NCBI RefSeq assembly: GCF_009469695.1
Contig: NZ_SSSR01000022.1
Location: forward strand, 1-50,998
Source: Propionivibrio limicola
GTDB taxonomy: Bacteria > Pseudomonadota > Gammaproteobacteria > Burkholderiales > Rhodocyclaceae
DNA length: 50,998 bases
Direction: 5' to 3'
Position numbers and translations under genes: made by a program. The notes under the pieces are model-generated. The model saw only the letters and a list, made by a program, of their open reading frames with translations, made no database searches and had not been told where the DNA came from. Below, one piece after another: positions 18,636 through 36,048 of the stretch (its first letter is position 1; every line of letters begins with the position of its first letter).

Positions 18636-18701
18636 TCGGGGATTTCGAAGTTGAATTCGGGGAACTCCCTGATGCCCGTTTTACCTTCTCACTACTACGA
18701 T
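18636..18701 (+). promoter_or_regulatory. repeated 41-bp element plus -10 box, copy 1
   Basis: The element is 18636-18676: outer dyad arms TCGGGGA and TCCCTGA, inner ATTTCGAAG and AATTCGG, ending GATGCC. Exactly 19 bp later comes TACGAT (18696-18701) as a -10-like box. No good TTGACA is present, which suggests an activator-dependent promoter. It lies 206 bp upstream of the first metallo-hydrolase gene. Confidence 0.8.
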
Positions 18702-18806
18702 GTTTTCCGCAGGGCGTGCGCAGTTGAGTCCTGCTTTCCTTTTCGATGATGGTTTTGTCGGGAAACGAAGTTTGTTTCCATGACTGAAGTTGATTTGTGA
18801 AGGGAG

Positions 18807-18905
18807 TTGGTGGCGGGGTGCGTGCGGCGTGCCGCAAGCGGCCGGCCAGACAGAGAGGTCCTCGATGGATTTCTCAACAACATCGATCAGCAGAGGGTGA
18901 AATGA
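18807..18905 (+). other. possible leader ORF upstream of metallo-hydrolase 1
   Basis: A 32-codon frame with TTG/GTG start after GGGAG, ending in a TGA that overlaps the ATG of the next gene. Its end REVLDGFLNNID resembles REGLAGLLNNID in the equivalent leader at 21692-21775. The leader also has a small stem (GGAAAC 18761-18766, GTTTCC 18774-18779). Coding status is uncertain. Confidence 0.3.
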
Positions 18906-21148
18906 CAGAAAAAACAAAAGGGGACGTTGAGGTAGCTCAACAGTCGCAATCGACTGGATTCGACAGCATTCTGACCGGGAAAATCTCGCGCCGCAGCTTC
19001 GCCAAGCTGCTTGGGATGCAGACAGTTGTTGCTTCCACGGTAACGCTTTCGGGTTGTTTGGGCGGCGGAAGCGATTCGGACTCCGATAGCAGTACCTCCG
19101 ATGCGGGCACACAGCCGCTCACGCGTGCCGCATTTGTCGCCACGATTTCCGACCACTTCAACTGGATCCATTCGTCCGAATACATTGACGCCTATAAGGC
19201 GGTTCAGCCGACCTTCGTTGACGTGATTTACGGCGCAACGCCGTATGCGAAGCAAATCGAGACCGCCCTGGAAGAGTCGATTATCAGCAACTCTCAGGGC
19301 TATTTTTATCCGACAGAGAACATTACCCGCGAGGATGCAGCCGACATTTATGTGAAAGCGTTCAAGATTCCGGCCGCGACTGGCAATCCGCTGAGCGGAT
19401 TCACTGACGCCAGCACGATCAGTGCCAGTAAGCTAAATAGCGTCAAGGCGATTGTCGCGGCGGGCTACATGAGTGGCACGAGCACCACGCTGTTCTCGCC
19501 GAAGGGTACGTTGTCGGCCAACGACGCCAAAACGATCCTGGCCAAGATCACGTCTTCCCTGGTGGCGCCGCCGCAGGTCATGTGCAAGCCGGGAACCACG
19601 GCTCCCCGGCGCTACGTAGCGATTTCGACTCCGACAGAGGGGGCGACGATCTATTACAGCTACACCTACGACGGCAGCGAACCAGCCGACCCGACAAGCG
19701 CCTCGGCAAGCTACGACTTCAGGCAAAACGGCGTACTCCAGTTCGTCAATCCCTTGTCATCAACGACGAATTCCCGGCTGTACCGCCTTAAGGCGGTGGC
19801 GATGAAGAATGGCATGGCAACCAGCGCGATTCGTGAGTTCTCATGGAACATCGTTCGCCCAAATACGGGGGCATTCCAAGCCAAACTGGTACATGCCGGG
19901 ACGAGTACCAGTCCGACGGTATGGAAGATCAACAACCCCGCCGAGTTTTATCAGGCGCATGTTTTTTACATCGAGGGTTCAGCGCGCGGCGTGGTGTTTG
20001 ATGCCGGCGAATACGGCTATCAAAAAGCCAACATGAAGGACTTCATCGACTCAATCGCCACCAAGCCCTACGACATGGTGCTTGGCCACAACCATCCTGA
20101 CCATGCCGAACAGGTTTACAACTTCACGTCGGCTGGCATCACGTTGTATGCCTCGGCTATCGAAAAGGCTTCACTGATGGCCTCGAGTCGAGCGGACTTC
20201 CAAGCGGCGGGTGCCGCCGCTGTTGCCATCAACGACGGTCAATCGCTGGATCTTGGTAACGTCCAGGTTACGGCGTTCAATGCCCCGGGACATACCAACG
20301 GCCTGCTCACTTTGTTGATCAATCAGACCGGCTGGGTTTACGCCTCGGACCATTTCTGCTGCAACCGTGCCTATACGGCCGATACGACCCAATACAACGG
20401 AGTAAAGGTCGATCTGATGGTGTCGCTGAACCAGCAACTTGTGGCCAATTACCTGAAGAGCAGTTCCAGCGGATTGCTCAACGAGGTGACCAATGCCCAC
20501 CAGGAAGTTCCCGTCGGCATGGAAGGCGTCAGGAATTTCCAGAAATGTTTCCAGCAGTTGGTCGATCAAGGCGATGCAGTGTCGGCGCCTTCGATTCGCG
20601 GTGGTGTTGCGGGTAATTCCCGAATGTCCCTCGTCTCGTCGTACTCCACACCCTTCGAGGGAATGTGGCGGGACAAGAACTGGATGGCCGTTGGCAACCC
20701 ACTGGGCAGTGGCTGGAACAAGCCCGTCGACTACTTCACTGCACCCACGACGGCTTATCCCTGCGGTGCGACGATCGACTACAACACGGCCGACGGTTAC
20801 AAGAAGTACTCGGTGCTGAGCAACGTCGAAATCAGTGGAGGTACGCTGGTTGGCGTCGATGTTTACTGGGCGGCTCCCTCCAACGGCGTGCCAAACAAGC
20901 TGTCGAACAAGTTCGATCCCTGGACCTACGCGTACACGATCAACGTTCCGACGGCGACGAACAGCATCACGTTCAAGCCGACGGCGATGTCGAACAAGAT
21001 CACGTCGATGAAGGTCAATGGTTCGGCTGTGACGCAGGGTTCCAGCGTGACCTTGTCGGTGTCTGCCGGAACAAGGATTACGGTGAACATTATTGCGGCC
21101 GACGGAAGTACATCGAGCTCTTATACCTTCACGGTGGCGAAGGTTTGA
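18902..21148 (+). CDS. Tat-exported SLH/metallo-beta-lactamase-fold lipoprotein 1
   Basis: A 748-aa exported hydrolase-like protein. The Tat motif SRRSFAK (29-35) is followed by a lipobox LSGC with C52, so it is a Tat lipoprotein. Then: SLH-like region about 73-220 (ITREDAADIYVKAF, FSPKGTLSANDAKTIL); a chitobiase-C-like beta domain about 235-310 (TYDGSEP); a metallo-beta-lactamase fold about 325-600 with HNHPDH (396-401), GHTNG (463-467) and ASDHF; and a C-terminal cadherin-like beta-sandwich from about 660. The ATG at 18902 follows GAGGGTG. Reaction and substrate are unknown; lactonase or esterase chemistry is possible. A tatA gene follows. Confidence 0.85.
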   Translation: MTEKTKGDVEVAQQSQSTGFDSILTGKISRRSFAKLLGMQTVVASTVTLSGCLGGGSDSDSDSSTSDAGTQPLTRAAFVATISDHFNWIHSSEYIDAYKAVQPTFVDVIYGATPYAKQIETALEESIISNSQGYFYPTENITREDAADIYVKAFKIPAATGNPLSGFTDASTISASKLNSVKAIVAAGYMSGTSTTLFSPKGTLSANDAKTILAKITSSLVAPPQVMCKPGTTAPRRYVAISTPTEGATIYYSYTYDGSEPADPTSASASYDFRQNGVLQFVNPLSSTTNSRLYRLKAVAMKNGMATSAIREFSWNIVRPNTGAFQAKLVHAGTSTSPTVWKINNPAEFYQAHVFYIEGSARGVVFDAGEYGYQKANMKDFIDSIATKPYDMVLGHNHPDHAEQVYNFTSAGITLYASAIEKASLMASSRADFQAAGAAAVAINDGQSLDLGNVQVTAFNAPGHTNGLLTLLINQTGWVYASDHFCCNRAYTADTTQYNGVKVDLMVSLNQQLVANYLKSSSSGLLNEVTNAHQEVPVGMEGVRNFQKCFQQLVDQGDAVSAPSIRGGVAGNSRMSLVSSYSTPFEGMWRDKNWMAVGNPLGSGWNKPVDYFTAPTTAYPCGATIDYNTADGYKKYSVLSNVEISGGTLVGVDVYWAAPSNGVPNKLSNKFDPWTYAYTINVPTATNSITFKPTAMSNKITSMKVNGSAVTQGSSVTLSVSAGTRITVNIIAADGSTSSSYTFTVAKV

Positions 21149-21191
21149 GCGCTGGCGGGGCGGTAAGCCCCTGATCCATCGGGTGGTAAAG

Positions 21192-21222
21192 GATCGCCTG
21201 ATTCGCGCTGAATCAGGCGATC
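21192..21222 (+). other. conserved hairpin between metallo-hydrolase 1 and tatA
   Basis: A perfect 13-bp stem (GATCGCCTGATTC with its complement) and a GCGCT loop. There is no following T tract, so it is more likely a processing, stability or attenuation element than a simple terminator. The equivalent hairpin at 24184-24214 has a compensating base-pair change. Confidence 0.75.
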
Positions 21223-21320: not shown

Positions 21321-21509
21321 ATGGGTAGTTTCAGCATCTGGCACTGGATGATCGTCTTGGTCATCGTCATGCTTGTTTTTGGTACAAAGAAGCTGCGGAA
21401 TGTTGGCGAAGACCTCGGCGGGGCGGTCAAAGGCTTCAAGGAGGGCATGAAAGAAGCCGAATCCGTCAGCAATGCGGGTGGCTTGCCGCCTCAGCATTCC
21501 CGCTTTTAA
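21321..21509 (+). CDS. tatA: twin-arginine translocase TatA-like, copy 1
   Basis: A 62-aa TatA/E-type protein: a short N terminus (MGSFSIWHW), one hydrophobic helix ([11 protein letters not shown]), the FGTKKL hinge, and an amphipathic helix ([19 protein letters not shown]). TatA forms the pore-like oligomer that moves folded Tat substrates. It is placed directly after a Tat substrate gene, away from tatBC, and its first 50 or so residues are nearly identical to the copy at 24307-24543. The ATG follows a GGGGGAAA stretch. Confidence 0.93.
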
Positions 21510-21521
21510 TCCATGTCAGGG

Positions 21522-21587
21522 TCAGGGATTTCGAAGTGAAATTCGGTGAAGTCCCCGATGCCTGTTTTATCTCCTCGCCACTACGAT
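21522..21587 (+). promoter_or_regulatory. repeated 41-bp element plus -10 box, copy 2
   Basis: The element is 21522-21562 (TCAGGGATTTCGAAG start; GTCCCCGATGCC end), followed after exactly 19 bp by TACGAT (21582-21587). The outer arms are TCAGGGA and TCCCCGA. It lies 205 bp upstream of the second metallo-hydrolase gene, the same spacing as copy 1. Confidence 0.8.
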
Positions 21588-21691
21588 GTTTTCCACAGGG
21601 CGTGAGTAGTTGAGTCCTGTTTTCCCTTTCGATGAGGTTTGGTCTGGAAACGAAATGCGTTTCCATGGTTGAAGTCGATACGTGAAGGGAG

Positions 21692-21775
21692 TTGGTGGCC
21701 GGTTCCATCCAGTGCGTTGCGGACGACCGGCTATACAGAGAAGGCCTTGCCGGACTTCTCAATAACATCGATTAG
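21692..21775 (+). other. possible leader ORF upstream of metallo-hydrolase 2
   Basis: A 27-codon frame starting TTG/GTG after GGGAG and ending REGLAGLLNNID then TAG, 12 bp before the next ATG. It is collinear without indels with the leader at 18807-18905. The leader also keeps the stem GGAAACG (21646-21652) with CGTTTCC (21658-21664). Coding status is uncertain. Confidence 0.3.
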
Positions 21776-21786
21776 CAGAGGGTGAG

Positions 21787-24138
21787 ATGAAAGAAAAAAC
21801 AAAGGGGGACGTTGAGGTAGCTCAACAGTCGCAATCGGAAGGCATTTTCTCGGAAAAAATCTCGCGCCGGAGTTTCGCCAAGCTGTTGGGCGCGCAAACG
21901 CTGCTCGCCTCCGCAGTGACCCTGACCGGGTGTGGAGGAGGGGACGACGATGATGATCCAGCAGCGAGTTCGGATACCGATACCGGCACTCAACCGCTGA
22001 CGCGCGCCGCGTTCGTCGCGACGATCTCGGATTACTTCGACTGGGCGCATTCGTCGGAATACATCGACATGTACAAGGCGGTGCAGCCGACCTTTGTCGA
22101 TGTCACGATGGGGGTGACTGCCTACGCCAAGCAGGTTGAAACGGCCCTGGAAGAATCGATCATCAGCAATGAGAGCGGCTACTTCTATCCTGAGACGCTC
22201 ATTACCCGTGAAGACGCGGCGGACATGTATGTCAAAGCCTTCCGGATTGCCGCCGCAACGACAAATCCGTTGTCGGGCTTTACCGATGCCAGCTCCATCA
22301 GCAGCAGCAAACTCGCCAGCGTCAAGGCCATTGTCGCCGCCGGTTACATGAGCGGTACGAGCACGACCCTCTTTGCGCCAAAAGGCAATCTGACGGGCAA
22401 TGAGGCGAAGAAAATCCTTGATGTCATTACATCCGCGCAGGTTGCTCCGGTGCACTCCCTGTGCAAGCCTGGAACCACGGCTCCGCGGCGCTATACCACC
22501 TATTTCTGCCCCACTCCCGGAGCGCAGATTTATATCACCGAAACGACGGATGGATCGGAGCCACCCAATCCCGATACGACATCGACAACGCAGACGATTA
22601 CGCCTATGTCGATTACGAATGCGTACTATGCGGGCGCGACCATCAAGTACGATTTCACGACGCTGGGTTCCCGGCAGTACAAGTTTGGCGGTTTGAACGC
22701 GACTGAGGGTGGGATCAGAACGGTCCGGGTGAAAGCCGTGGCGGTGAAGAGCGGCATGAAGGCGAGTGCTGTCCGCGAATTTTCGTGGGTGATTTATCGC
22801 CCGAAGAATTCCCCGTTCGAGGCCAAGCTGGTGCATGCCGGAAGCGCGACCGAGCCAAAGGTCTGGAGGATTTACAACCTCACCGAATCCGTTCAGGCGA
22901 ACGCCTTCTATGTCGAAGGCAGCACCCGCGGCATGCTCGTCGATGCGCTCGAACTGGATGTGGCAGGCGGTGCAACTTCTTACAACCCCGGCAACTACAA
23001 CCTCAAGACCTTCCTCGACAGTATTGCCACGAAGCCCTACGACGTGTTGATCGGGCACTATCATGGCGACCACTCCGCCCATATGGTGAATTTCACCAGC
23101 GCCGGGATCAATTGCTACGTTAGTGCCCAGTGTCAGGCCGAATTGCTCGTGCAAACGAGTGCTCAGGCGATTAACAACCGGTGGGCCGAAGCCGCCTCAT
23201 CAGCCTATTGCAAGGTGCTCACCGACGGCCAGGAATTCCCGCTGGGTAACGTGACGTGCTCGGCATGGCAGACGCCGGGGCACACGAATGGCCTGACGAC
23301 CCTGCTCGTCCATGAGCCGGGTTGGGTTTACGCCTCGGATATGTGGGGTTGCAACCGTCCATACACGTCAGATACCACGTACTATGGCCAGATCAAGTCC
23401 GACCTGTTCCTGTCGATGTGCCAGCAGGTGCTGGTGAATTACCGGAAGAAGATTCCGTCCGGGATCATTACCGAAGTTACCAATGCGCACCAGGAAGCCC
23501 CGGTGGGCATGGTCTGCATCAACAACTTCCTGCAGTCGTACCAGAATCTGGTTGACAACGGCATTTCAGCGGTCAAGCCGTCGATTCGTAACGGCACGAA
23601 GGGAAATAACGGGATGCTCAACGTCGGTGACCCGTGGCGGAACAAAAACTGGATCGCCCTTGAGCCCGGTCAGCAAGTTTCCGCTACGGCATTGACGATC
23701 CTGAGCTCGCCGACCAATTCCACGTTCCGGCCGGCCTCCGCGCCGATTCCGGTCGACTACAACGCCGCCGATGGTTACAAGAAATATTCGGTACTCAGCA
23801 ACATCGAGATCAGCGGTGGTGATTTGGTCGGGGTCGATCTCTACTGGGGAGCGCCGCAATCGAACGGTACCGGAACGGTGGCCTGTAAAGTACCGAACAA
23901 GTTCGATCCCTGGACGTATGCCTATACGATCAACGTTCCGGTGGCAAACGGCAGCATCACGATCAAGCCGACTGCCATGTCGAACAAGATCAAGTCGATG
24001 AAGGTGAATGGAAACACGGTTGCACAAGGGGCAAGCACCACCGTCTCCGTTTCCGCCGGCACCAAGATCACCATCGACATTGTTGCGGCAGACGGAACCA
24101 CGTCGAGCTCCTATACCTTCACGGTTGCAAAGGTTTAA
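21787..24138 (+). CDS. Tat-exported SLH/metallo-beta-lactamase-fold lipoprotein 2
   Basis: A 783-aa paralog of the protein at 18902-21148, with the same domain order. Tat motif SRRSFAK has its arginines at 27-28; lipobox LTGC has C49. Next come an SLH-like region about 72-220, a chitobiase-C-like part (ETTDGSEPPNPDT) with about 30 extra residues compared with paralog 1, a metallo-beta-lactamase fold with HYHGDH (425-430), GHTNG and ASDMW, and a C-terminal cadherin-like sandwich ending SYTFTVAKV. The metal ligands look intact. The first 15 codons are almost the same as in paralog 1. tatA, tatB and tatC follow. Function is unknown beyond a probable exported metal-dependent hydrolase. Confidence 0.85.
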   Translation: MKEKTKGDVEVAQQSQSEGIFSEKISRRSFAKLLGAQTLLASAVTLTGCGGGDDDDDPAASSDTDTGTQPLTRAAFVATISDYFDWAHSSEYIDMYKAVQPTFVDVTMGVTAYAKQVETALEESIISNESGYFYPETLITREDAADMYVKAFRIAAATTNPLSGFTDASSISSSKLASVKAIVAAGYMSGTSTTLFAPKGNLTGNEAKKILDVITSAQVAPVHSLCKPGTTAPRRYTTYFCPTPGAQIYITETTDGSEPPNPDTTSTTQTITPMSITNAYYAGATIKYDFTTLGSRQYKFGGLNATEGGIRTVRVKAVAVKSGMKASAVREFSWVIYRPKNSPFEAKLVHAGSATEPKVWRIYNLTESVQANAFYVEGSTRGMLVDALELDVAGGATSYNPGNYNLKTFLDSIATKPYDVLIGHYHGDHSAHMVNFTSAGINCYVSAQCQAELLVQTSAQAINNRWAEAASSAYCKVLTDGQEFPLGNVTCSAWQTPGHTNGLTTLLVHEPGWVYASDMWGCNRPYTSDTTYYGQIKSDLFLSMCQQVLVNYRKKIPSGIITEVTNAHQEAPVGMVCINNFLQSYQNLVDNGISAVKPSIRNGTKGNNGMLNVGDPWRNKNWIALEPGQQVSATALTILSSPTNSTFRPASAPIPVDYNAADGYKKYSVLSNIEISGGDLVGVDLYWGAPQSNGTGTVACKVPNKFDPWTYAYTINVPVANGSITIKPTAMSNKIKSMKVNGNTVAQGASTTVSVSAGTKITIDIVAADGTTSSSYTFTVAKV

Positions 24139-24306: not shown

Positions 24307-24543
24307 ATGGGTAGTTTCAGTATCTGGCACTGGGTGATCGTGTTGGTCATCGTGATGCTCGTCTTCGGTACCAAGAAGCTTCGCAACATCGGCGAAGACC
24401 TTGGCGGTGCGGTCAAAGGATTCAAAGAGGGGATGAAGGAGGCTGAAACAGCGAGTAATGCTGGCGAGTTGTCCCTTCAGCCGGTCTCCGGTGGACAAAC
24501 CATCGAGGGCGAAATCCGGGAAAAAACTAAAAGCATGCTTTAA
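24307..24543 (+). CDS. tatA: twin-arginine translocase TatA-like, copy 2
   Basis: A 78-aa TatA/E protein with the same N-terminal helix and amphipathic segment as copy 1 and a longer polar tail ([12 protein letters not shown]). The ATG at 24307 is preferred over an in-frame ATG at 24286, because it matches copy 1 and follows TGGAGAAC. It begins the tatA-tatB-tatC group and directly follows the second Tat substrate. Confidence 0.93.
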
Positions 24544-24544
24544 G

Positions 24545-24620: not shown

Positions 24621-24962
24621 ATGTTCGGCATCGACTTTTCCGAATTGATCGTTATTGCCATCGTCGCGCTTGTGGTGATCGGCCCTGAACGCCTGCCCCG
24701 TGTCGCCCGTACGGTCGGGCATCTGTTCGGACGCACACAGCGTTATGTCAGCAAGGTGAAGGCCGACATAAGTCACGAGATGCAACTCGACGAACTCCAG
24801 AAGTTAAAAACCGAAACGCAGGAATCGCTACGCGCTATCGAAAATGGTATTTCCCGGGAAATACAGGCGGTAGGGCAGGCCGGGGCCGAAGCCGTCCAGT
24901 CGGCCGATTCGATGCTTCAGGAGGCCACGCCGGGCATCCTGCGTTCCGCAAAACAAAAATGA
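24621..24962 (+). CDS. tatB: twin-arginine translocase subunit TatB
   Basis: A 113-aa TatB: MFGIDFSELIVIAIVALVVIGPERLPRVARTVG has the single membrane helix and the GPERLP hinge typical of TatB, followed by a long charged amphipathic helix. With TatC it forms the receptor for twin-arginine signals. It precedes tatC by 16 bp. Confidence 0.96.
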   Translation: MFGIDFSELIVIAIVALVVIGPERLPRVARTVGHLFGRTQRYVSKVKADISHEMQLDELQKLKTETQESLRAIENGISREIQAVGQAGAEAVQSADSMLQEATPGILRSAKQK

Positions 24963-24978: not shown

Positions 24979-25710
24979 ATGAGTCAACTTGAGGAATCTT
25001 TTCTCGGCCATCTTTTTGAACTGCGCGACCGTCTCATACGGTCGTTGCTTTCTGTGGGGCTGGTTTTTATTTGTCTTTTCCCTTGGGCAAAAGACCTTTA
25101 TTCGCTTCTTGCCCAGCCACTTCTGGCGTCGTTGCCTCAGGGCGGTCAAATGATCGCGACCGACGTGATCGGCGTTTTCATGGTGCCGATGAAGGTGACG
25201 CTCATGGTGGCCTTCCTGATCGCGTTGCCTTTTGTGCTGTACCAGGCGTGGGCATTCGTGGCGCCCGGTCTGTACTCGCATGAAAAGCGCCTGGCGGTGC
25301 CGCTTGTCGCGTCGAGCGTGATCCTGTTCTTTGTCGGGATGTCTTTTGCGTATCTCTTCGTTTTCCCGACCGTGTTCGGGTTTATGGCCAAGGTCGCCCC
25401 GGACGGCGTGGCGTGGATGACCGACATTGAAAAATACCTTTCCTTTGTGATGGGCACCTTTATGGCGTTCGGCATGACGTTTGAAATGCCGGTGATCGTG
25501 ATTGTCCTTGTCAGAATGAATATCGTCGGACTCGCCACGCTCAAGGAGTGCCGCTCATATGTAATCGTCGGCGCGTTTGTTCTGGGGGCCATATTGACTC
25601 CGCCGGACGTCATTTCGCAGCTCATGCTGGCGATCCCGCTTTGGCTGCTCTATGAGCTTGGGATGCTGGTGGCGCGTTTCACCGGTTGTGAAGGTGGCGT
25701 AGCCACTTGA
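24979..25710 (+). CDS. tatC: twin-arginine translocase subunit TatC
   Basis: A 243-aa polytopic membrane protein with six predicted helices. Family motifs are the N-terminal FLGHLFELRDRLIRSLL, FVAPGLYSHEKR and FGMTFEMPVIV with its conserved Glu. It recognises the RR signal together with TatB. The start has a weak GGGGCGAG ribosome-binding site. A histidine kinase gene follows. Confidence 0.96.
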   Translation: MSQLEESFLGHLFELRDRLIRSLLSVGLVFICLFPWAKDLYSLLAQPLLASLPQGGQMIATDVIGVFMVPMKVTLMVAFLIALPFVLYQAWAFVAPGLYSHEKRLAVPLVASSVILFFVGMSFAYLFVFPTVFGFMAKVAPDGVAWMTDIEKYLSFVMGTFMAFGMTFEMPVIVIVLVRMNIVGLATLKECRSYVIVGAFVLGAILTPPDVISQLMLAIPLWLLYELGMLVARFTGCEGGVAT

Positions 25711-25804: not shown

Positions 25805-27388
25805 ATGTTTTTCCTGGCTGTCTTTCTCAGATATTCGTGGGTTGTGGAGAGAGAGCACAAAGTTCAGGAGCTGTCCGGCATCCTGCGTTTCGGTTCCGAA
25901 TTCTGCGAAATCTATCTCGAACGGATAAAGGCGACGCATAGAAGGTTCGCGAATGAGGTGTTGCAGATTGAAGGGCTGGTAGAAGCAGATAAAGCCCTGG
26001 TCATGCTTAATAACTACAAGAGAACCAATCCGGATCAGCTTGGTTTTGTTTTATTTTCTGCCCGTGGCGAAGTAATCGCTGATACCGATGCCTTGATTGA
26101 TAAGCCGCAGATTCTGCTTTTCTCTGATATGCCAATCAGGCAGTTTCAGGTGGACAAGCACCGTGAAGAACGTCTTGAGTTTGAACCCATGGCGTCAGAA
26201 ATCTCGGGTGAGAGCTTGATCCTTCCGCTTCGATATGCGGTGCGTGATACCGACGGGGAGCTGAAGTACGTTGTCAAGTCGCGGCTTCGTTTAGGACTGC
26301 TGCAAAATTTCTGGAAAACGGCTCTGGTTCCGCAAGAGTCGGTGCTTGGGCTTGTCCATGATGGCGGTTATTTGATCAACCGGTACTCGGCTAATCCCGG
26401 CGAATCGGTTGATCAAGCTTTTGGGAAGCCCAGCGCTGACGCGTTGGTGAGCAGCCTTCGACAAACAGGCTTACCAACAAACGGGGATTTCCAAATCAGG
26501 CCTCTTGGAGCCGATTCAGAACAACTGGTGATCTTCAGGCGTCTTTCCTATCATCCGGTCACGATGTTTGTCAGTATCCCGATGTCGTCCATCTGGATGG
26601 GATGGTGGAACAGGGTAAGAGTTTCATTTTTTCTGTCGATAGCTCTAATCGTTGTCGGTGGTGTCGCCTACGGACAAATCATCAAGAAGCGCCGGGCAGA
26701 GCACCTTGTTTCCGAAAAACAAACAGAGTTCGAAGACGTGACCCAAGGCATCCTGACAGCGCAAGAAGAGGAAAGGGCGCGCCTGTCGCACGAACTCCAC
26801 GATGAAGTGGGCCAATCGTTGACGGCGCTGAAGATAACCCTCAACCGTGCCCAACAAAACCTGGCCAACCATGAAAAGGCGTCCGCCTTGCTGGGGAGCG
26901 GGCAAGAAATGGTCGAAGAGATGGTGGGCGGGATACGGGAAATCGCCTACCGCCTGCGCCCCTCCGAGCTTGACCAGCTCGGGCTGGTGGCGGCGCTGCG
27001 CTCGCACATTGACAAGACCATCCGGCCGCTCTTTCCGAATGTCGCCTTGTCGGAAAACGTCGGCCACCAGCGCTTCAATCACGACCTCGAACTCTGTTGC
27101 TTCCGGATTGCCCAGGAAGCCCTGACCAATTGCCTGCGCCACGCCAAGGCGACGCAGATCGACGTTTCCCTGGATTACCAGGCCCCCCGGCTGACCCTCG
27201 CCATCAAAGACAACGGCGTCGGCTTTGACGCCGCATGCTACTCCTCGGCGCAAGCCGCCTCCGGCTCGCTCGGCCTTATCGGCATGCGCGAACGGGTGGC
27301 CGCCAACGGCGGGCAACTCTGGATCGTCGCCTTGCCCGAAGGCGGCACCCAAGTGACCGCCCACTTCCACCAGATTGGAGAACTTTAA
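25805..27388 (+). CDS. NarX/LuxR-type sensor histidine kinase, copy 2
   Basis: The intact frame gives 527 aa: the remains of TM1 (MFFLAVFLRYSW), a periplasmic sensor, TM2 near residues 270-295, HisKA_3 (ERARLSHELHDEVGQSL, H332) and HATPase_c (EALTNCLRHAKA, DNGVGFD). The natural start is probably at 25729, separated by a -1 shift at a T9 tract; starting at 25805 leaves TM1 very short and without its usual upstream residues. The sensor aligns with copy 1 end to end (FWKTALVPQESV versus FWKTALIPQESV) but is well diverged, while the kinase core is almost identical. TAATG overlap with the regulator gene. Confidence 0.88.
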   Translation: MFFLAVFLRYSWVVEREHKVQELSGILRFGSEFCEIYLERIKATHRRFANEVLQIEGLVEADKALVMLNNYKRTNPDQLGFVLFSARGEVIADTDALIDKPQILLFSDMPIRQFQVDKHREERLEFEPMASEISGESLILPLRYAVRDTDGELKYVVKSRLRLGLLQNFWKTALVPQESVLGLVHDGGYLINRYSANPGESVDQAFGKPSADALVSSLRQTGLPTNGDFQIRPLGADSEQLVIFRRLSYHPVTMFVSIPMSSIWMGWWNRVRVSFFLSIALIVVGGVAYGQIIKKRRAEHLVSEKQTEFEDVTQGILTAQEEERARLSHELHDEVGQSLTALKITLNRAQQNLANHEKASALLGSGQEMVEEMVGGIREIAYRLRPSELDQLGLVAALRSHIDKTIRPLFPNVALSENVGHQRFNHDLELCCFRIAQEALTNCLRHAKATQIDVSLDYQAPRLTLAIKDNGVGFDAACYSSAQAASGSLGLIGMRERVAANGGQLWIVALPEGGTQVTAHFHQIGEL

Positions 27389-28029
27389 TGGCCACGCGCA
27401 TCGTCGTCGTCGATGACCACCGGCTGGTAAGGGCCGGCATCGTCGCCCTGCTCGAAGACATTCCCGAAGTAGAAATCGTAGGCGAAGCGTCGGACGGCAC
27501 ACAAGCCTTGAAGACGGTCGCCGAACTCGAACCTGACTTACTGATCCTCGATCTGTCGATGCCTGAAATGTCCGGATTCGAAGTGCTCGAGCGGATTCAC
27601 GAAACCCACCCGCGCGTGAAGGTCATCATCCTCTCCATGCACGACAGCGCCGAGCACGTCCATCGCGCCCTCAAACTGGGCGCTTCCGGATACCTGCTCA
27701 AGGACGTACTGCCGGACGAACTGGTGCTGGCGATCGACGCGATCAAAAAAGGCCGCACCTGGCTCTCCTCCGCCATCTCCAAGACCGTCATCGACGGCTA
27801 CCTGGGGCGGAACGGCGAGGAGGGCGCGCTGTCACCGCTCACGGAAAGACAGAGCCAGGTTCTGAAGATGATCGCGGAAGGCCAAAGCACCAAACAAATC
27901 AGCGGCCATCTGAACCTGAGCGTCAAGACGATCGAGACCTACCGGGCGCAGATCATGGAGAAGCTCGACATCCACGATATTGCCGGCCTCGTGCGTTACG
28001 CAATCCGGCAGGGGATTGTTCCGCTGTAA
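26746..28029 (+). repeat. direct repeat, kinase core plus regulator, copy B
   Basis: Second copy of 17338-18621. The two copies flank the metallo-hydrolase and tat genes, so recombination between them would delete or loop out 9,408 bp. Confidence 0.9.
27388..28029 (+). CDS. NarL/FixJ-family response regulator, copy 2
   Basis: 213 aa, two residues different from copy 1 (V44 instead of I; S instead of N in LTERQSQVLKM). Receiver acidic pair D9-D10, phospho-acceptor D55 and the LuxR-type HTH are unchanged, so both regulators should recognise the same DNA. The third 41-bp element starts 14 bp after its stop codon, as copy 1 does after the first regulator. Confidence 0.95.
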   Translation: MATRIVVVDDHRLVRAGIVALLEDIPEVEIVGEASDGTQALKTVAELEPDLLILDLSMPEMSGFEVLERIHETHPRVKVIILSMHDSAEHVHRALKLGASGYLLKDVLPDELVLAIDAIKKGRTWLSSAISKTVIDGYLGRNGEEGALSPLTERQSQVLKMIAEGQSTKQISGHLNLSVKTIETYRAQIMEKLDIHDIAGLVRYAIRQGIVPL

Positions 28030-28042
28030 AGCGCGATTTTAA

Positions 28043-28108
28043 TCAGATATTTCGTAGTTGATTTCGGGCAAATCCCCGATGCCTGAATTTCCCCTCTATC
28101 GCTAGGAT
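28043..28108 (+). promoter_or_regulatory. repeated 41-bp element plus -10 box, copy 3
   Basis: The element is 28043-28083 (TCAGATATTTCGTAG start; AATCCCCGATGCC end) and TAGGAT (28103-28108) follows after exactly 19 bp. The left arm is the most diverged of the four. It lies 225 bp upstream of the first serine-hydrolase gene, so the leader is again long; the 28109-28313 stretch holds no other supported gene. Confidence 0.72.
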
Positions 28109-28327
28109 GCACTACGTAGATCGTCGTCTGGTAGTGCAGGTATTTCGTTGCCTTTATCCGGATAATTCTGAATAAAAGGAATCCGGATTTGCGATGCGTG
28201 CCACCTTTTTCGCTGGCTGATTATCAGACTGATCTGCTTTGTAACCATGAATCAGGGGGCAGACAGAAGACAGAAATTGCTGACATTTTTTTGTCCTACG
28301 AATATTTGTTAATCAGGGGAAATGTTT

Positions 28328-29296
28328 ATGAAAAGCGTATCTATTGGGAAGGCATTGGCGGTGGCGGTGGCCGGATCCTCGTTGATCTTGTCGGGCTGTA
28401 ATGGCGGTGGGAGTGATAACGATGAAGTAGCGGCAACGCCAGCTGAACCGACGCCGGCAATTGAGAAATTTTTTCCGGTAGTAAAAGAGGCCGCGCCAGG
28501 GTTGGATGGTTACACGATATATCGCCCGGCTAAACTCTCCGATGTGGGAAGCAAGGTTCCTGTCCTCGTTTGGCAAAACGGCGCCTGCAAGAAGAGCAAC
28601 CATCAATACTGGGATGTTCTGGGTAATATTGCGGCTCGTGGATTCGTCGTGGTGGCCTATGGAAGCAATAGCCAGCCGGTGATTACGGAGTCAAATACCG
28701 TTACGCCCACCAGAGTTTGGGATGCATTGAATTGGGTAACCAATAAAGCCAGTTCAAATTCCGGTTATGAATTGATTGATAGCAGCAAGATCGGTACATT
28801 TGGTACATCGTGCGGCGGACTTGAAGCATTGTTGGGTGGAGCCGACTCACGTGTTAAATCCGTTGCGGCGCTAAATACCGGTTTCTTTGATGCAGGCACA
28901 ACAAGCAGTATCAATATGGGTGGGTATTCGCCCGCAAACATGAAGAACCTGCATAGTCCGTTGCTGTTTATCGGCGGTGGTCCGTATGACGTTGCTTACA
29001 AACAGACCCATTCGAACTATGACGTTTCGACAGTGCCGACTGTCCTTGCCGAGAATTATCAGGGGGGGCATTCCGGCCTGTGGGCCGGAATCAGATATTC
29101 CTATACGGATTCCACCAATACCGTTCCTTCCGCTGCCACGGTCGATTACACAATTACCACTGAATCGATTAACGCGGTGGTTCGCTGGTTCGATTACACC
29201 CTGAATGGTGTCAAGTCGCAGGCCTCCTATTTCTTGGGCAGCGATTGCGGCTTGTGCAAGGTGAGCGGCTGGTCTGTTCAGTCAAAGAATTTCTAA
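28328..29296 (+). CDS. secreted alpha/beta-hydrolase lipoprotein
   Basis: A 322-aa serine hydrolase of the alpha/beta fold (dienelactone-hydrolase or chlorophyllase-like style). Signal peptide with lipobox LSGC, C24. Nucleophile elbow GTSCGG with S161, then a plausible acid D221 (GGGPYDVAY) and H248 (GGHSGLW). The ATG at 28328 is chosen over 28322 because AGGGGAA lies 8 bp before it. It is paired with a paralog 24 bp downstream. Substrate unknown; an ester or polyester bond is plausible. Confidence 0.82.
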   Translation: MKSVSIGKALAVAVAGSSLILSGCNGGGSDNDEVAATPAEPTPAIEKFFPVVKEAAPGLDGYTIYRPAKLSDVGSKVPVLVWQNGACKKSNHQYWDVLGNIAARGFVVVAYGSNSQPVITESNTVTPTRVWDALNWVTNKASSNSGYELIDSSKIGTFGTSCGGLEALLGGADSRVKSVAALNTGFFDAGTTSSINMGGYSPANMKNLHSPLLFIGGGPYDVAYKQTHSNYDVSTVPTVLAENYQGGHSGLWAGIRYSYTDSTNTVPSAATVDYTITTESINAVVRWFDYTLNGVKSQASYFLGSDCGLCKVSGWSVQSKNF

Positions 29297-29320: not shown

Positions 29321-30280
29321 ATGAAGAAAATTGTTTTGGGCGTAGCCATGGCAGCGGCGGTTTGCGGTTCAGCGGCGTTCGTTGTGGCCGCAACCTCGAC
29401 TTCAACCCCGGCGATCAGTAAGTTTTTCCCGGTAATTCGCGAAGCGGCTCCGGGTCTGGATGGATACACCGTATATCGCCCGACGGATCTTTCGGCCGTG
29501 GATAGTGGTGCGAAGGTGCCCGTCCTTGTCTGGGGGAACGGGGCATGCAAGCTGAGCAACCAACAGTATTGGGATGTTCTGGGGGCCGTTTCGGCGCGCG
29601 GCTTCGTGGTCGTTGCGCATGGCAGCCCGTCCCAAGAGGCTACAAAGGACCCGGTGACTACGGATCCCGCCAAGATGACAAAGGCAATGGATTGGTTGGT
29701 CAAAACCGCTCCTTCGAAATCTGGTTATGAATTGGTGGATACAAGCAAAATCGGTGTTTTCGGTACGTCCTGTGGCGGTTTGGAGGCTCTGCTGGCAGCT
29801 GCTGATTCGCGAGTCAAATCTGTGGGCGCTCTGAATACTGGTTTCCCGGAGGCAACCGTAGTGGCTGGAACGACTACGGCGGGTGCAAGTCTCGTGAATG
29901 TTCCGGCGGTGACTTATAGCCGGAATGATTTGAAAAATCTTCATCAACCGGTCTTATGGCTGGGGGGCGGCGAAAGGGATGTGGCCTATGCGAACAGACA
30001 GGCGAACTATGATTTGACGACCGTGCCGACGGTTCTTGCCGAGAATCCTCGGGGCGGCCATTCCGGTTTGTGGACGGGTTTCCGCTATTCGGCGACAGAT
30101 TCGGCAAATGTCATCCCAACTGTGGATTACACGATCACCACGGAGTCAATCGAGGCAGTTGTTCGTTGGTTTGACTACACCCTGAATGGCAATACATCAC
30201 AATCAACCCACTTCCTGGGAACAGATTGCGGCCTGTGCACCACTACCGGCTGGACTGTGAAGTCGAAGAACTTTAACTAA
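29321..30280 (+). CDS. secreted alpha/beta-hydrolase, non-lipidated paralog
   Basis: 319 aa, tandem paralog of the preceding gene with shared blocks (FFPVIREAAPGLDGYTVYRP, GTSCGGLEALL with S150, GGHSGLWTGFRYS). The signal peptide ends near VVAAT and has no lipobox Cys, so the product should be free in the periplasm or exported further. Four Cys near the C terminus and middle (NGAC, DCGLC) are shared by the pair and may form disulfides. A terminator follows directly, so the two hydrolases form one transcription unit from promoter copy 3. Confidence 0.82.
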   Translation: MKKIVLGVAMAAAVCGSAAFVVAATSTSTPAISKFFPVIREAAPGLDGYTVYRPTDLSAVDSGAKVPVLVWGNGACKLSNQQYWDVLGAVSARGFVVVAHGSPSQEATKDPVTTDPAKMTKAMDWLVKTAPSKSGYELVDTSKIGVFGTSCGGLEALLAAADSRVKSVGALNTGFPEATVVAGTTTAGASLVNVPAVTYSRNDLKNLHQPVLWLGGGERDVAYANRQANYDLTTVPTVLAENPRGGHSGLWTGFRYSATDSANVIPTVDYTITTESIEAVVRWFDYTLNGNTSQSTHFLGTDCGLCTTTGWTVKSKNFN

Positions 30281-30332: not shown

Positions 30333-30631
30333 CACTGATCGCACGTATTTGCAAAAACGCTCCCCATTTTCTGAAAGACGAGGGTGTTGGCTCACCGTAG
30401 TCTTTGCTCCGTTGGTGGTTACGGCTCCGGGGGATACCAAGAGAGTCCGAACGCCAATTATCGATATGGATAAGGGACTGAGGGATGGTCCCGTACCGAT
30501 TTGCGGGGAACGGGGGGCGTTGGTCGATCGGTGCTTCGGAGAACGTTAAGGGCATCGGTAGGCGTTGGTCTTCCGTCGTGGTTGCAATCGGTTTTCTTTA
30601 TCTCGATTGTCATCACTTACGGAGAAAAATA

Positions 30632-32464
30632 ATGAATCACAGGAGTCAAGCAAGATCAGCCATGAGTCTGGCGATTGCGGGGTGCTTTGCCCTTGCCTTG
30701 GGTGGTTGTGGCGGGGACAGCGACAGCAGTAGCAGCAGTACGACGACCGCGCCAGTGGAAACGGCGTGCGCGGATTTGCTGACGCAATTCAAGATGGATG
30801 GTGTCACGCTGACGAAGGCGGAAGCTGTCGCCGCGGCGGCCAACATTGTTGGTATGAACACTACCGGGCAGAATACGGAGAACTCCGGGCCGATGCCTGC
30901 GCACTGCTTGATACAGGGCAAGGCGGATGCGCGGACCAGCACTGTCGACGGTAAATCGTATGCGATCGGTTTTGAAGTCCGGATGCCGACAACCGGCTGG
31001 AACGGGCGTTTCTTCTTCCAGGGCGGTGGCGGCTCCAATGGTGCGTTGGCCATGGCCTATGGCAACCTGCGTGGAAATATCCTCGATTCAAGCGGCAAGC
31101 CGACAGATAACGCATTAAATCGCGGCTTCGCTGTCGCATCCACGGATGGTGGCCACCTCATTGAGGCGGGCACGGACGCCAATGCGTCGAATGCCTTTGG
31201 TGTCGATCCCCTGGCGCGTCTCGATTTCGGCTACAACGCCGTGGCCCGGACGACGACCATCGCCAAGGCTCTGATCGCCAAGCGCTTTGGAAAATCGGCT
31301 GACCACTCCTATTTCGTCGGCTGCTCCAACGGCGGTCGCGATGCGATGATGGCTTCGCAGCGGCTTCCGGATCAGTTCGACGGCGTGTTTGCCTTGAATC
31401 CGGGATTCCAGATGCCGAAGGCCGCGGTCAATCAGGCCTGGGATACGCAGCAGTTCAACAGCGTGAGTCCGGGTACGATTTTTGATGCGTTCAGTCAGGC
31501 CGATCTTGATGCGGTTAGCAAGGCCGTGCTCAATGCTTGCGATGCCGATGATGGTGCCAAAGATGGCCTGATCTTCGATCAGAAAGCCTGTGCAGCGAAG
31601 TTCAATCCTGATACGGCGCTTGCCGGTGTTCTGACTGCGCCGCAGTTAGCAGCGCTCAAGAAGGTCTTCGGCGGTGCCAAGGATTCCAGCGGTAATGCTA
31701 TTTATTCCGACTTCCCGTGGGATGCTGGTATCAACTACAAGGATTGGCGTGACTGGAAACTTGGCATAGGAGCTCCCTCGGTAGGTGTTGCTAAAGGGGC
31801 TGGGAAGGCGATTTCGATTGGTGCCTACTCGTTGCCTGCTGTCTTCATGCAGCCGAGTGCGCCGATTACTGGCGATACCGTTTTTAACTCCTCTAATGGT
31901 TTTGCGTTCCAGTTGAACCTCAAGACCCAGACCAATCTGTCCGGTACGGTTGACCCCGAGTTGATCTATGCGACGAGCGGTATTTACAACGTCCCGTCGA
32001 TCAACAAGACAGCCTACAGCGGTGGATTTATCGCGGCCAACAGCACGAACTACGATACGTTCAAGGCTCGTGGGTCGAAGCTGATCGTGGCGCACGGTAC
32101 CAGCGACGGTGTGTTCTCCTCGAACGACACGAAGAGCTGGTATGAGACGTTGTCGACCAAGTACGGCAGCAATACGCAGAGCTTTGCCCGTTATTTCCAG
32201 ATTCCGGGCATGAACCACTGTGCCGGAGGAGCGACCACCGACAAGTTCGATATGGTCACAGCGCTGGTCGACTGGGTTGAGAAGGGAACAGCACCGGAAT
32301 CCGTTGAGGCCTCGAGTCGTGATCAGAGCTATCAGTATGCGTCCGCTCCGTGGTCGACGACCTACAAGCCGACGCTGATCGCCGCGGGCATCACCCGTCC
32401 GCTCTGCGCCTATCCGAAGCAGGCGAAGAGCACCGACCAAGGTGCGACCTGGACGTGCCAGTGA
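30632..32464 (+). CDS. tannase/feruloyl-esterase-family lipoprotein
   Basis: A 610-aa secreted esterase. The signal peptide ends in lipobox LGGC (C26), followed by a Ser-rich linker. The family's CS-D-HC signature is visible: GCSNGG at 230-235 with S232 beside C231, and PGMNHCAGG near the C terminus, where the catalytic His neighbours a Cys. Established knowledge: members hydrolyse gallate, ferulate or related aromatic esters, and MHETase belongs to this fold group. The ATG at 30632 follows GGAG; an upstream in-frame GTG/ATG lacks a signal peptide at its end. It is a single-gene unit with its own terminator; I do not see the 41-bp element before it. Confidence 0.87.
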   Translation: MNHRSQARSAMSLAIAGCFALALGGCGGDSDSSSSSTTTAPVETACADLLTQFKMDGVTLTKAEAVAAAANIVGMNTTGQNTENSGPMPAHCLIQGKADARTSTVDGKSYAIGFEVRMPTTGWNGRFFFQGGGGSNGALAMAYGNLRGNILDSSGKPTDNALNRGFAVASTDGGHLIEAGTDANASNAFGVDPLARLDFGYNAVARTTTIAKALIAKRFGKSADHSYFVGCSNGGRDAMMASQRLPDQFDGVFALNPGFQMPKAAVNQAWDTQQFNSVSPGTIFDAFSQADLDAVSKAVLNACDADDGAKDGLIFDQKACAAKFNPDTALAGVLTAPQLAALKKVFGGAKDSSGNAIYSDFPWDAGINYKDWRDWKLGIGAPSVGVAKGAGKAISIGAYSLPAVFMQPSAPITGDTVFNSSNGFAFQLNLKTQTNLSGTVDPELIYATSGIYNVPSINKTAYSGGFIAANSTNYDTFKARGSKLIVAHGTSDGVFSSNDTKSWYETLSTKYGSNTQSFARYFQIPGMNHCAGGATTDKFDMVTALVDWVEKGTAPESVEASSRDQSYQYASAPWSTTYKPTLIAAGITRPLCAYPKQAKSTDQGATWTCQ

Positions 32465-32855: not shown

Positions 32856-34724
32856 ATGGTTTGCTCGGCGAATGCTGAATTGAACGCCAAGGGGCGGCTC
32901 ACGTGTCAATCGAGTCTGCGCCTCATGGTTTTGTGTAGTGTGCTTGGTGTTACTGCGTTGCTTCCTGCATGTGGCGGTGATGGCGGCGACAATTCCGTGG
33001 CCACCACGCCGCCGGTGGTTGTCGATAAATATCCGAACGTTCCGACGCCAACCGTAACCGCGTTGCCAAGCTCCGGCGTTTCGGCAGATCGCGATTATCC
33101 GTTCCTTGCCTCCGATTTCGATCCCAAAGCCTTTGGGTTCGTCGAGGAAGAGTTTCTGTTTGATGGCAAGGCCAACGTCTATGACCTGAAGACTTCGAGG
33201 ACCGACGTATTTTCTCTCGCTAATAATTACCCGGTGACCCAGAATGCGAAAGTCGTGTCCACTGGCAACCCCTACCGCACGCGGATGATAGTCCTTCGTC
33301 CTTCGGACCCGGCCAAGTTCAACGGCACGGTGATTGTTGAATGGGTCAATGCTTCAAATACTTGGGATACGCCGATCCATTTGTTCGAGCAGAAGAACAT
33401 GGTTCTGCGCAAAGGTTATGCGTACGTTGGTGTGACCGTGCAGGATATGACGATTTCCGGCACGAATGGCCTCAAGGCCTGGAGTCCAAAACGCTACGGT
33501 ACGCTGGACGTCACCAATGGCGGGAAATTGGTCAATGAAGAGCTTTCGCTGGATATCTTCTCGCAGGCAGCAAAAGCCGTGCGCGCCGACAGCAAAGTCA
33601 TGGGCGGGATGAGCGTCAAGAAAGTTCTTGCGGTAGGCGAGTCGCAATCGGCCATGCGGCTGGGTGTTTACCTGAATTCGGTTCACCCGCTCACCGGCAA
33701 TATTTTCGATGGCGCGCTGGTGACTAACAGCGGCCCGGCGCAGCGCACCGATCTGTCAATTCCGATTATCAAGATTCTGACCGAATCCGAATTCGAAACG
33801 GCGACGACCAACGAAACCATGGTTTTGCAGTCCGATACGGACAAGTACAAGACGTGGTACGTCGCGGGATCGACGCATTCGAATCTGACCAGCTTGCTGC
33901 CACGTACAGTCATGTACGTTCGCGATTTCAATGGCAAGATGATCAGCGACACCTGTGCTGTGCCGATGAATAGCCGCGTGAATCTCGGCCATATCTACAA
34001 TGCCGGTATCGTTGCGCTCGAGAAATACATCGACAAGGGCACCGCGATGCCGACGAGTCCGCAATTTCAATACACCGCGAGTGCGACTGCTCCGAGCCTG
34101 ATGCGGGATGCTGACGGCCTCGCCTTGGGCGGTATCCGGGTACCGGATGTCGTTGTGCCGGTAGCGCTCAACTCCGGGGTCAATACGGCGTGTCCGGGGC
34201 TCAGTGGTTCGCACGTGCCATTTACCAAGGCAAAACTCGATGCTCTGTACTCGACGCATGCCGATTACGTTAGCAAAGTCACGACTGCCGCGAATCAGTC
34301 GGTGGCCGACGGCTTCATGTTGGCGGAAGATGCGCAGGACGTGATCAACACCGCCAGCGCGTCGATTCATGGCTACAAGTTGAATTGCGATGGTGACGGT
34401 ACCACCAACTTGTGCGGAGACCGCGGTCTGTTCCCGCAAACCCCGTCGATCCACAACCTGCGTTGGCACATCTATCTGTATTACCTGCCTAACCGGGCCA
34501 AGATTCTTGCTCCGGTCGACGAAGCCGCACTCAAGATCGCTTCGGGCTACAACGCGACCGATGCAGCGACGAAGAAGATGTACTTCAGTCAGGCGATCGC
34601 GTTGCTGGAAAATTATTCGGATCTGATTCAGGCGGAAGCAACTGGCGGAACGCTCTCCAAGGATTCCGCCACCTATCTGTCCGGTCAGGCCAGCCAGCTG
34701 ATTACCGAGCTGCAGAAGCTTTAA
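32856..34724 (+). CDS. secreted alpha/beta-hydrolase-domain lipoprotein
   Basis: A 622-aa protein like the family annotated as alpha/beta hydrolase domain-containing (Pfam Abhydrolase_10, from memory). N-terminal signal with lipobox LPAC (C39). Characteristic blocks are GTVIVEWVNASNTWD and the nucleophile region VLAVGESQSAMRLG (S263). The C-terminal half includes SIHGYKLNCDGDG and LRWHIYLYYLPNRAKI. GGAGGGG precedes the ATG. The exact reaction is not known to me. It is the fourth serine-hydrolase gene in the island and a separate unit between two terminators. Confidence 0.8.
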   Translation: MVCSANAELNAKGRLTCQSSLRLMVLCSVLGVTALLPACGGDGGDNSVATTPPVVVDKYPNVPTPTVTALPSSGVSADRDYPFLASDFDPKAFGFVEEEFLFDGKANVYDLKTSRTDVFSLANNYPVTQNAKVVSTGNPYRTRMIVLRPSDPAKFNGTVIVEWVNASNTWDTPIHLFEQKNMVLRKGYAYVGVTVQDMTISGTNGLKAWSPKRYGTLDVTNGGKLVNEELSLDIFSQAAKAVRADSKVMGGMSVKKVLAVGESQSAMRLGVYLNSVHPLTGNIFDGALVTNSGPAQRTDLSIPIIKILTESEFETATTNETMVLQSDTDKYKTWYVAGSTHSNLTSLLPRTVMYVRDFNGKMISDTCAVPMNSRVNLGHIYNAGIVALEKYIDKGTAMPTSPQFQYTASATAPSLMRDADGLALGGIRVPDVVVPVALNSGVNTACPGLSGSHVPFTKAKLDALYSTHADYVSKVTTAANQSVADGFMLAEDAQDVINTASASIHGYKLNCDGDGTTNLCGDRGLFPQTPSIHNLRWHIYLYYLPNRAKILAPVDEAALKIASGYNATDAATKKMYFSQAIALLENYSDLIQAEATGGTLSKDSATYLSGQASQLITELQKL

Positions 34725-34758
34725 TCAAAAGCCGCATCGTCCATCACCCTGCCTTATG

Positions 34759-34792
34759 CCCCGTCACCGGTCATCGGTGGCGGGGTGTTTTT
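34759..34792 (+). terminator. rho-independent terminator after alpha/beta-hydrolase lipoprotein
   Basis: An 11-bp stem (CCCCGTCACCG with CGGTGGCGGGG, one G-U pair), loop GTCAT, then TGTTTTTG. Confidence 0.88.
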
Positions 34793-34988
34793 GTTGCCGG
34801 AACCCGAACAGCAATGCTGAATTGCCGAATTCGATAGGGATGGACTGAATTTCTTGGTTAACCCGGATTTACCGGCTAGTCTTTGCCAGCATCATCATTT
34901 TCAGGTCGGGGACGGGCAGATGCCGATTTTTGTCGGAACAGGCCAGGTGCCTTGAAATGTTCAAAAAGAATAATCGAGGGTTAGGCTT

Positions 34989-35885
34989 ATGGTGAGTGAG
35001 TGCTCTGAATCGATTCTGACGCCATCAATGTTGTGTACCGACGAGGTTGGCAAGCCTTTGTTGAGTATGCCGGAATCATGGAGTGGCGTCCCCTTGAATC
35101 TTTATCGCGGCTTGGGGCAGTCGCAACGGGGGCCGTGTCATGTGGAGAGTCCTGTAATCGTTTTATGCGAAAGCGGCTGCGAGGGGGCGCGTTGGTATCG
35201 GCAAAACGGCAGGGTGATTGAACTACGAGCCAATGGTGTCGGGGCATTCGACTTTATCGGGCGGGACTATCAGCGCGAGTGGGGGCGCTGGGACGTGACG
35301 CCTGGTCGTACCGTGGGTGTGGAACTGACTCCAGCAGTTGTCAGCCGATTGGCGCCTGAAGCGCTCGATTTCGATTTGTCGACGATTTACGGCGTCTTCG
35401 ATCCAAAGCTGCAATGGCTGGTCCTTGAGCTGCTCGAGGAGTCGCTGCGTGGCGCACTTGGCGGCGCGCTCTATGTCGAGGGCCTCTCAAGCGCGCTGAT
35501 TGCCCGCCTTGCAAGTTGCTATGGGCATCGGAAAACGGCCGACCGCCCAGTCGGAAGTCTTTCGGCGATTGGCCGTCGCCGGATAGCGGAATTCATCGAG
35601 GCGCATCTGGGCGATGAGCTCAGCGTCGTCGCTCTGGCGAAGGAAGCGGGGTTGAGCCCGCATCATTTTTCCCGCTGTTTTACGGCAAGTTTTGGCCAGC
35701 CCCCGCATCGTTATGTTCAGCAGCGCCGCGTCGAAGCCGCGCGGCGCATGTTGGTGCTATCCTCCCGCTCGCTGGCCGAAATCGCCATGGATCTAGGCTT
35801 CTCCAGTCAGTCGCACTTCTCGCAAGTCTTTCGTCAGCACACCGGGATGACTCCGACACTCGCGCGTTCAGTTCGAATCGGATAG
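34989..35885 (+). CDS. AraC-family transcriptional regulator, paralog
   Basis: 298 aa. The C-terminal double helix-turn-helix reads LSVVALAKEAGLSPHHFSRCF and LAEIAMDLGFSSQSHFSQVF, followed by GMTPTLAR. The N-terminal effector domain shares the YQREWGRWDVTPGR block with the AraC protein at 14008-14898. It stands between the hydrolase genes and the type II secretion operon; likely targets are the neighbouring hydrolase genes (inference). Confidence 0.88.
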   Translation: MVSECSESILTPSMLCTDEVGKPLLSMPESWSGVPLNLYRGLGQSQRGPCHVESPVIVLCESGCEGARWYRQNGRVIELRANGVGAFDFIGRDYQREWGRWDVTPGRTVGVELTPAVVSRLAPEALDFDLSTIYGVFDPKLQWLVLELLEESLRGALGGALYVEGLSSALIARLASCYGHRKTADRPVGSLSAIGRRRIAEFIEAHLGDELSVVALAKEAGLSPHHFSRCFTASFGQPPHRYVQQRRVEAARRMLVLSSRSLAEIAMDLGFSSQSHFSQVFRQHTGMTPTLARSVRIG

Positions 35886-35982
35886 CAGGATTCTTATAAA
35901 ACAGCCGCAGTTTTCTGGTAGCTCTGAACAGCATGAGGGGGCTACTCTCGCCCCGGCTATCAGTTTTCCCAAAAGAAAACAG

Positions 35983-36048
35983 TCGGGGATTTCGAAGGGA
36001 CGAATCCGGGAATCCCTGATGCCTTAGAAGAAGCGACTTGGGTAATCT
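35983..36048 (+). promoter_or_regulatory. repeated 41-bp element plus -10 box, copy 4
   Basis: The element is 35983-36023 (TCGGGGATTTCGAAG start; AATCCCTGATGCC end); here the dyad arms extend to TCGGGGATT and AATCCCTGA. TAATCT (36043-36048) follows after exactly 19 bp. It is 176 bp upstream of gspC, inside a 333-bp gap that holds no other supported gene. Confidence 0.8.

Follow-up and report, generated by a model that had tools for sequence, protein, structure and literature searches.

A two-dyad promoter element in a secretion island of Propionivibrio limicola and its association with LuxR-type response regulators

The window analysed here, a 50,998-nucleotide (nt) stretch of Propionivibrio limicola (contig NZ_SSSR01000022.1, positions 1 to 50,998), holds four copies of a 41-bp element, each upstream of genes for putative exported hydrolases or for type II secretion. 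By computation, the element consists of two dyads, keeps a fixed spacing to the core promoter inside and outside the window, and is associated through its palindrome with genes of LuxR-type response regulators. We propose, with a probability of about 77%, that each element is a paired site for two dimers of the near-identical response regulators RR1 and RR2 encoded in the window, which would activate the four promoters in a phosphorylation-dependent manner, possibly in response to two signals.

Anatomy of the element and its core promoter

The four copies, all of equal length and on the plus strand, lie exactly where an earlier note on this DNA had placed them:

Element 1, 18636..18676, plus strand: dyad A 18636-18650, dyad B 18658-18672, -35 slot 18673-18678 (TGCCCG), -10-like hexamer TACGAT 18696-18701; upstream of the metallo-beta-lactamase-like gene MBL1
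Element 2, 21522..21562, plus strand: dyad A 21522-21536, dyad B 21544-21558, -35 slot 21559-21564 (TGCCTG), -10-like hexamer TACGAT 21582-21587; upstream of MBL2
Element 3, 28043..28083, plus strand: dyad A 28043-28057, dyad B 28065-28079, -35 slot 28080-28085 (TGCCTG), -10-like hexamer TAGGAT 28103-28108; upstream of the hydrolase pair
Element 4, 35983..36023, plus strand: dyad A 35983-35997, dyad B 36005-36019, -35 slot 36020-36025 (TGCCTT), -10-like hexamer TAATCT 36043-36048; upstream of the type II secretion operon

The left and right arms described earlier are two adjacent dyads with centres 22 bp apart, a structure recognised from elements in relatives. Dyad A (TCRGGGATTTCGAAG-like), the left arm, is less symmetric than dyad B, a 15-bp palindrome (TCAGGGAnTCCCTGA-like) that holds the right arm and is often exactly TCAGGGAATCCCTGA in relatives. 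Dyad B of element 4 matches the palindrome at 13 of 14 positions.

A strict IUPAC pattern with up to three mismatches recovers three of the four sites (element 3 exceeds the limit), which are its only matches in the window and in the whole 3.1-Mb genome, and it finds no match in 100 dinucleotide shuffles of the window. A looser pattern retrieves all four sites and one further place with three mismatches, which scores 8.3 bits in a five-site matrix, compared to 56.8 and 58.4 bits for elements 3 and 1. In a leave-one-out analysis the held-out sites reach 56.5, 52.7, 40.6 and 23.1 bits, with the best other position of the window below 4. Pattern searches of the genome revealed no further close copy; weaker sites may exist elsewhere in it, the genome having been searched by pattern and the window by matrix. 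The single palindrome with one mismatch occurs in the window only at 4928, 20529 and 36005, the first two of which are within open reading frames (ORFs), and an exact palindrome at C32:36613 of the same genome, also within an ORF, was not counted as a target. Pairs of 15-bp sites in the window at a loose threshold, too low to be informative, gave no excess at 22 bp.

Dyad B is directly followed by the -35 slot, then by 17 bp and the -10-like hexamer. The distance from GATGCC to this hexamer is exactly 19 bp in all four copies, and TTGACA is lacking as had been stated, the -35 slots matching it at only one or two of six positions. The right arm had further been thought to sit on the -35 position, which needs correction: dyad B ends one base before the slot and abuts it, and only the trailing TGCC falls within. 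Setting the hexamer at -12 to -7 places the centre of B at -43 and that of A at -65, with predicted leaders of 164-207 nt downstream.

The promoter reading is borne out by two-dyad elements at loci outside the P. limicola genome, which were chosen by their A and B scores alone, with the -10 region unseen and duplicates removed (n = 25). At +31 from the centre of B, the offset observed in the window, the mean match to TATAAT is 2.76 of six, with at least four matches in 11 of the 25 elements. The mean at other offsets from 12 to 49 is at most 2.04, and 2000 base shuffles give a mean of 1.49 (standard deviation 0.20, largest 2.16). The dyad centres are 21-22 bp apart in 22 of these elements (20-23 bp allowed), and the -35 slot begins with T in 22 as well.

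It is unlikely that the same regulators bind these sites as repressors, with B blocking RNA polymerase at the -35 region and phosphorylation altering occupancy. Position alone is compatible with either sign, and B does touch the -35 slot; however, the poor -35 slots of all four promoters are as expected where an activator is needed, and 22-bp phasing with a proximal site abutting the -35 is the activating layout described for BvgA promoters (PMC7250471). Very improbable is the involvement of another DNA-binding protein or a function at the RNA level, such as a hairpin or an attenuator. The palindrome and the predicted leaders would suit it, but the element keeps a fixed distance upstream of the -10-like hexamer and would therefore not be in the transcript.

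The regulators and their association with the palindrome

Two kinase-regulator pairs are encoded upstream of elements 1 and 3:

HK1, 16325..17980, plus strand: histidine kinase with HisKA_3 and HATPase_c (Pfam)
RR1, 17980..18621, plus strand: response regulator of 213 residues with receiver (REC) and GerE domains; stop codon 14 nt before element 1
HK2, 25805..27388, plus strand: histidine kinase (Pfam)
RR2, 27388..28029, plus strand: response regulator with REC and GerE domains, 99% identical to RR1; stop codon 13 nt before element 3

Both regulators match Response_reg and GerE above cut-off, the domain composition of NarL/FixJ (LuxR-type) regulators, and their HisKA_3-type partner kinases lie directly upstream. 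The best PDB sequence matches of RR1 are VraR (5hev, E 2.2e-35) and NarL (1a04, E 6.9e-35), which are similar over the receiver and helix-turn-helix (HTH) regions. HK1 and HK2 share 69% identity overall, with diverged sensor halves and identical last ~214 residues. At the DNA level, the near-identical tracts 17325-18621 and 26733-28029 comprise the kinase output halves and the response regulators, and positions 17400-18599 are 89-100% identical to their counterpart in the second system in 100-base windows. A recent duplication of the output half would account for this, as would gene conversion that keeps it uniform. As the regulators are 99% identical and the sensor halves differ, two signals may feed the four promoters, and two sensors would then share one operator code.

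The association was assessed at 80 named-genome loci with RR1-type relatives, identified by a scan with an alignment of six relatives and with patterns covering part of the HTH recognition region. Palindromes matching at least 13 of 14 positions occur 10 times in the 150-bp zones downstream of the regulator stop (11.8 kb in all) against 8 times in the remaining 1126.6 kb, a 120-fold enrichment, which upholds outside the window the proposed link to the LuxR-type family. At 12 of 14 positions the counts are 19 near the stop and 75 elsewhere (24-fold), and at 14 of 14 two and two, whereas 12 permuted half-sites gave no near-stop match across the 80 loci. Three of the ten near-stop loci (L086, L089 and L090) belong to genomes already used in shaping the pattern; the seven new ones are from Dokdonella, Luteimonas, Lysobacter, an unplaced member of Pseudomonadota, Thermodesulfovibrionales, Wallbacteria and Methylomirabilota. 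The palindrome-regulator loci outside the pattern-shaping set include Xanthomonadaceae and Nitrospirota.

Full elements follow the regulator gene in a genome of another genus (G043) and in a congener (G013, regulator identified by eye). A stricter element pattern has 8 places in 5 of 395 family genomes, compared to 2 for the reversed control; one of the 8 (L177 in G014) is within an ORF and probably a chance match. Of 198 related genomes, 67 contain the exact palindrome and 18 the reversed control (counted from a table). In addition, bins of Dehalococcoidales and Nitrospirota have elements that lie between tandem LuxR-type regulator genes or next to them (L119, 10733 and 11595; L121, 6355).

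Several observations weigh against our proposal. The strict palindrome is absent from the 150-bp zone in 70 of the 80 regulator loci; since only 10 carry the strict form, many relatives have no palindrome or a diverged one. None is found nearby in the close relatives L016, L087 and L088 (61-64% identity), and in the congener with the closest regulator (G006, 68%) the palindrome (13 of 14) follows the next gene and not the regulator, as is likewise the case in G203 (regulator 65%). Fewer than four -10 matches are found in 14 of the 25 outside elements, which show no peak of the TTGACA match at the -35 slot and some of which, for example L007, L104 and L140, may be chance matches. Moreover, the window contains two AraC-family genes, one of them ending 97 nt before element 4, and its four copies are not independent because sites 1-3 are linked by duplications.

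That either AraC-type regulator of the island (14008-14898 or 34989-35885) binds the element is very unlikely. Dyad B is an inverted repeat, whereas direct repeats are typical of AraC-type sites, and at loci beyond the window, which were not searched for AraC genes, the palindrome goes with the LuxR-type response regulator across phyla.

As to the duplications, sites 1 and 3 close the two copies of a 1352-bp repeat (17325-18676 and 26733-28083, 96% identity), sites 1 and 2 open those of a 992-bp repeat (18636-19614 and 21522-22493, 75% identity), and site 4 is the sole copy outside both. Sites 1 and 2 are identical at 35 of 41 positions and over the following 60 positions at 51, and the preceding 60 bases agree at 20; the corresponding values for sites 1 and 3 are 33 of 41 and, downstream, 27 of 60. 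The element looks constrained, since sites 1 and 2 and their downstream positions agree better than the 75% of the 992-bp repeat. Although the repeats join at site 1 and between them include sites 1-3, it is very unlikely that the element merely remains from the segmental duplications by which the island arose, given site 4, the apparent constraint on sites 1 and 2, and the same element beside related regulators in other genera and phyla.

Targets in the island and in other genomes

The four elements precede the following genes:

MBL1, 18902..21148, plus strand: metallo-beta-lactamase-like protein; twin-arginine motif and lipobox-like site (by eye); SLH and cadherin-like Pfam matches
tatA-like ORF after MBL1, 21321..21509, plus strand (by eye)
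MBL2, 21787..24138, plus strand: MBL1 paralogue (64% identity); twin-arginine motif followed by a lipobox-like site (by eye); SLH and cadherin-like Pfam matches
Second tatA-like ORF, after MBL2, 24307..24543, plus strand (by eye)
TatA/B-family protein, tatB-like, 24621..24962, plus strand
TatC, 24979..25710, plus strand
Hydrolase 1, 28322..29296, plus strand: alpha/beta-hydrolase-like, below Pfam cut-offs; lipobox-like site by eye
Hydrolase 2, 29321..30280, plus strand: similar to hydrolase 1 at the DNA level
GspC-like protein, 36219..37022, plus strand: first gene of the type II secretion operon; weak match, below cut-off
GspD secretin, 37019..39196, plus strand
GspE ATPase, 39138..40688, plus strand
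GspL, 40696..41775, plus strand

These agree with the four targets of the earlier note (both MBL genes, the hydrolase pair and the type II secretion operon), with the MBL, hydrolase and GspC calls below curated cut-offs. Lipobox-like sites were also seen by eye in a tannase-family and an Abhydrolase_10 protein. With a second tatC elsewhere in the genome and six secretin genes in all, including that of the window, dedicated export machines are plausible. No relative of MBL1 at E <= 1e-60 was found among 299 other genomes of the order.

The best PDB matches of the tannase-family protein (30485-32464) are to mono(2-hydroxyethyl) terephthalate hydrolase (8ekg, E 3.7e-93). It adjoins PETase- or BHETase-like hydrolases (weak matches) and the Abhydrolase_10 protein. 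Degradation of aromatic esters or polyesters is a possible function of the island.

In other genomes, 21 first downstream genes were tallied, lying downstream of the element or, at some loci, of the palindrome alone. Two elements of genome G122 (L075 and L076, with no same-strand gene directly downstream) and an aminotransferase gene distant from its site (L093) were excluded. The targets mostly function in signalling or transport, and include GGDEF-EAL proteins, chemoreceptors, a K+ transporter, an ammonium transporter, regulators, a heme-oxygenase-like protein, a periplasmic binding protein, a molybdopterin-binding protein and proteins of unknown function, besides three matrixin-like proteases and one beta-helix protein. 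The matrixin-like proteases are encoded by large genes downstream of regulator and palindrome at L097, L099 and L100 (in Lysobacter, Luteimonas and an unplaced member of Pseudomonadota); these loci carry the palindrome only, and a small ORF intervenes in L097. The prediction that sites in related genomes would precede secreted hydrolase, tat and gsp genes thus failed, with no tat or gsp gene and only the three proteases and the beta-helix protein among the 21. The term secretion regulon suits the island, with its Tat lipoproteins, Tat translocase, hydrolases and type II secretion system, but it does not describe a general property of the element; the general pattern is a regulator, a promoter and a local target. 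In G122 (L074-L079), six exact palindromes, most of them within full elements, lie upstream of chemoreceptor, K+ transporter and GGDEF-EAL genes among others, and this genome could possibly serve as a model regulon.

Proposed mechanism and comparison with known systems

BvgA of Bordetella is a NarL/FixJ-type regulator, and its partner BvgS is a hybrid kinase that also carries receiver and phosphotransfer domains. According to the published account (PMC7250471), BvgA binds its promoters as head-to-head dimers every 22 bp on one helical face, the proximal site abuts a non-consensus -35 with 17-bp spacing, and substitution of a consensus -35 costs regulation. The window elements share the 22-bp distance between centres, the proximal site abutting a non-consensus -35 and the spacing of ~17 bp to the -10. 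The primary fha site of Bordetella, with an A-rich, G-containing left arm and a TTTCCT-type right arm, is an inverted repeat (PMC7250471), as is dyad B of the window elements. By contrast, the BvgA promoters described there have three or six dimers, compared to the two dyads of the window elements, whose palindrome has a one-base centre and a GGGA/TCCC core. In HK1 and HK2, Pfam gives only HisKA_3 and HATPase_c, with no receiver or phosphotransfer domain; the window system would work like BvgA but is not a BvgAS system.

A more distant likeness is to CrbS/CrbR of Pseudomonas, in which, according to the published account (PMC5715377), the LuxR-family response regulator CrbR activates via an imperfect inverted repeat, the ACTU motif, upstream of its targets. 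However, ACTU sequences (for example with TAC...GTC arms) are unlike the TCAGGGA arms of the window, CrbS is a hybrid SLC5-type kinase, and the targets are acetate genes. A literature search found no bacterial regulatory paper with these palindromes or the A-box string, with the subscription literature largely uncovered, so that the motif may have been published.

By analogy with the BvgA-type layout, each promoter is probably activated by two dimers of phosphorylated regulator. We infer that two RR1 or RR2 dimers, arranged head-to-head, would bind one face of the helix, centred at about -65 (A) and -43 (B), and that the B-bound dimer, abutting the -35 slot, would make up for the poor -35. The promoter would fire, rather than be repressed, once a kinase has sensed its signal and phosphorylated the regulator, with possible cross-talk between the two systems. 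The predicted outputs are the two MBL-like lipoproteins exported by Tat, the pair of exported hydrolases and the type II secretion operon, and expression of hydrolytic enzymes may thereby be coordinated with that of two export machines.

More tentatively, and at somewhat less than even odds, kinase, regulator and a two-dimer promoter facing onward near the regulator stop might form a portable cassette that brings any downstream gene under the control of the sensor; the loci of several phyla would then have unrelated targets. In P. limicola such a cassette would have been copied, its output half staying near-identical while the sensors diverged, and its promoter used four times, so that two signals would converge on a single island that combines Tat, type II secretion and hydrolase genes.

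With the element, a testable operator code becomes available for a group of LuxR-type response regulators that occur in several phyla, and targets in uncultured bacteria could be predicted from sequence. To judge from the sequence, the BvgA-type promoter layout would now extend to environmental bacteria, and in the island one signal would govern hydrolases, encoded beside an MHETase-like esterase, along with Tat and type II export genes of their own.

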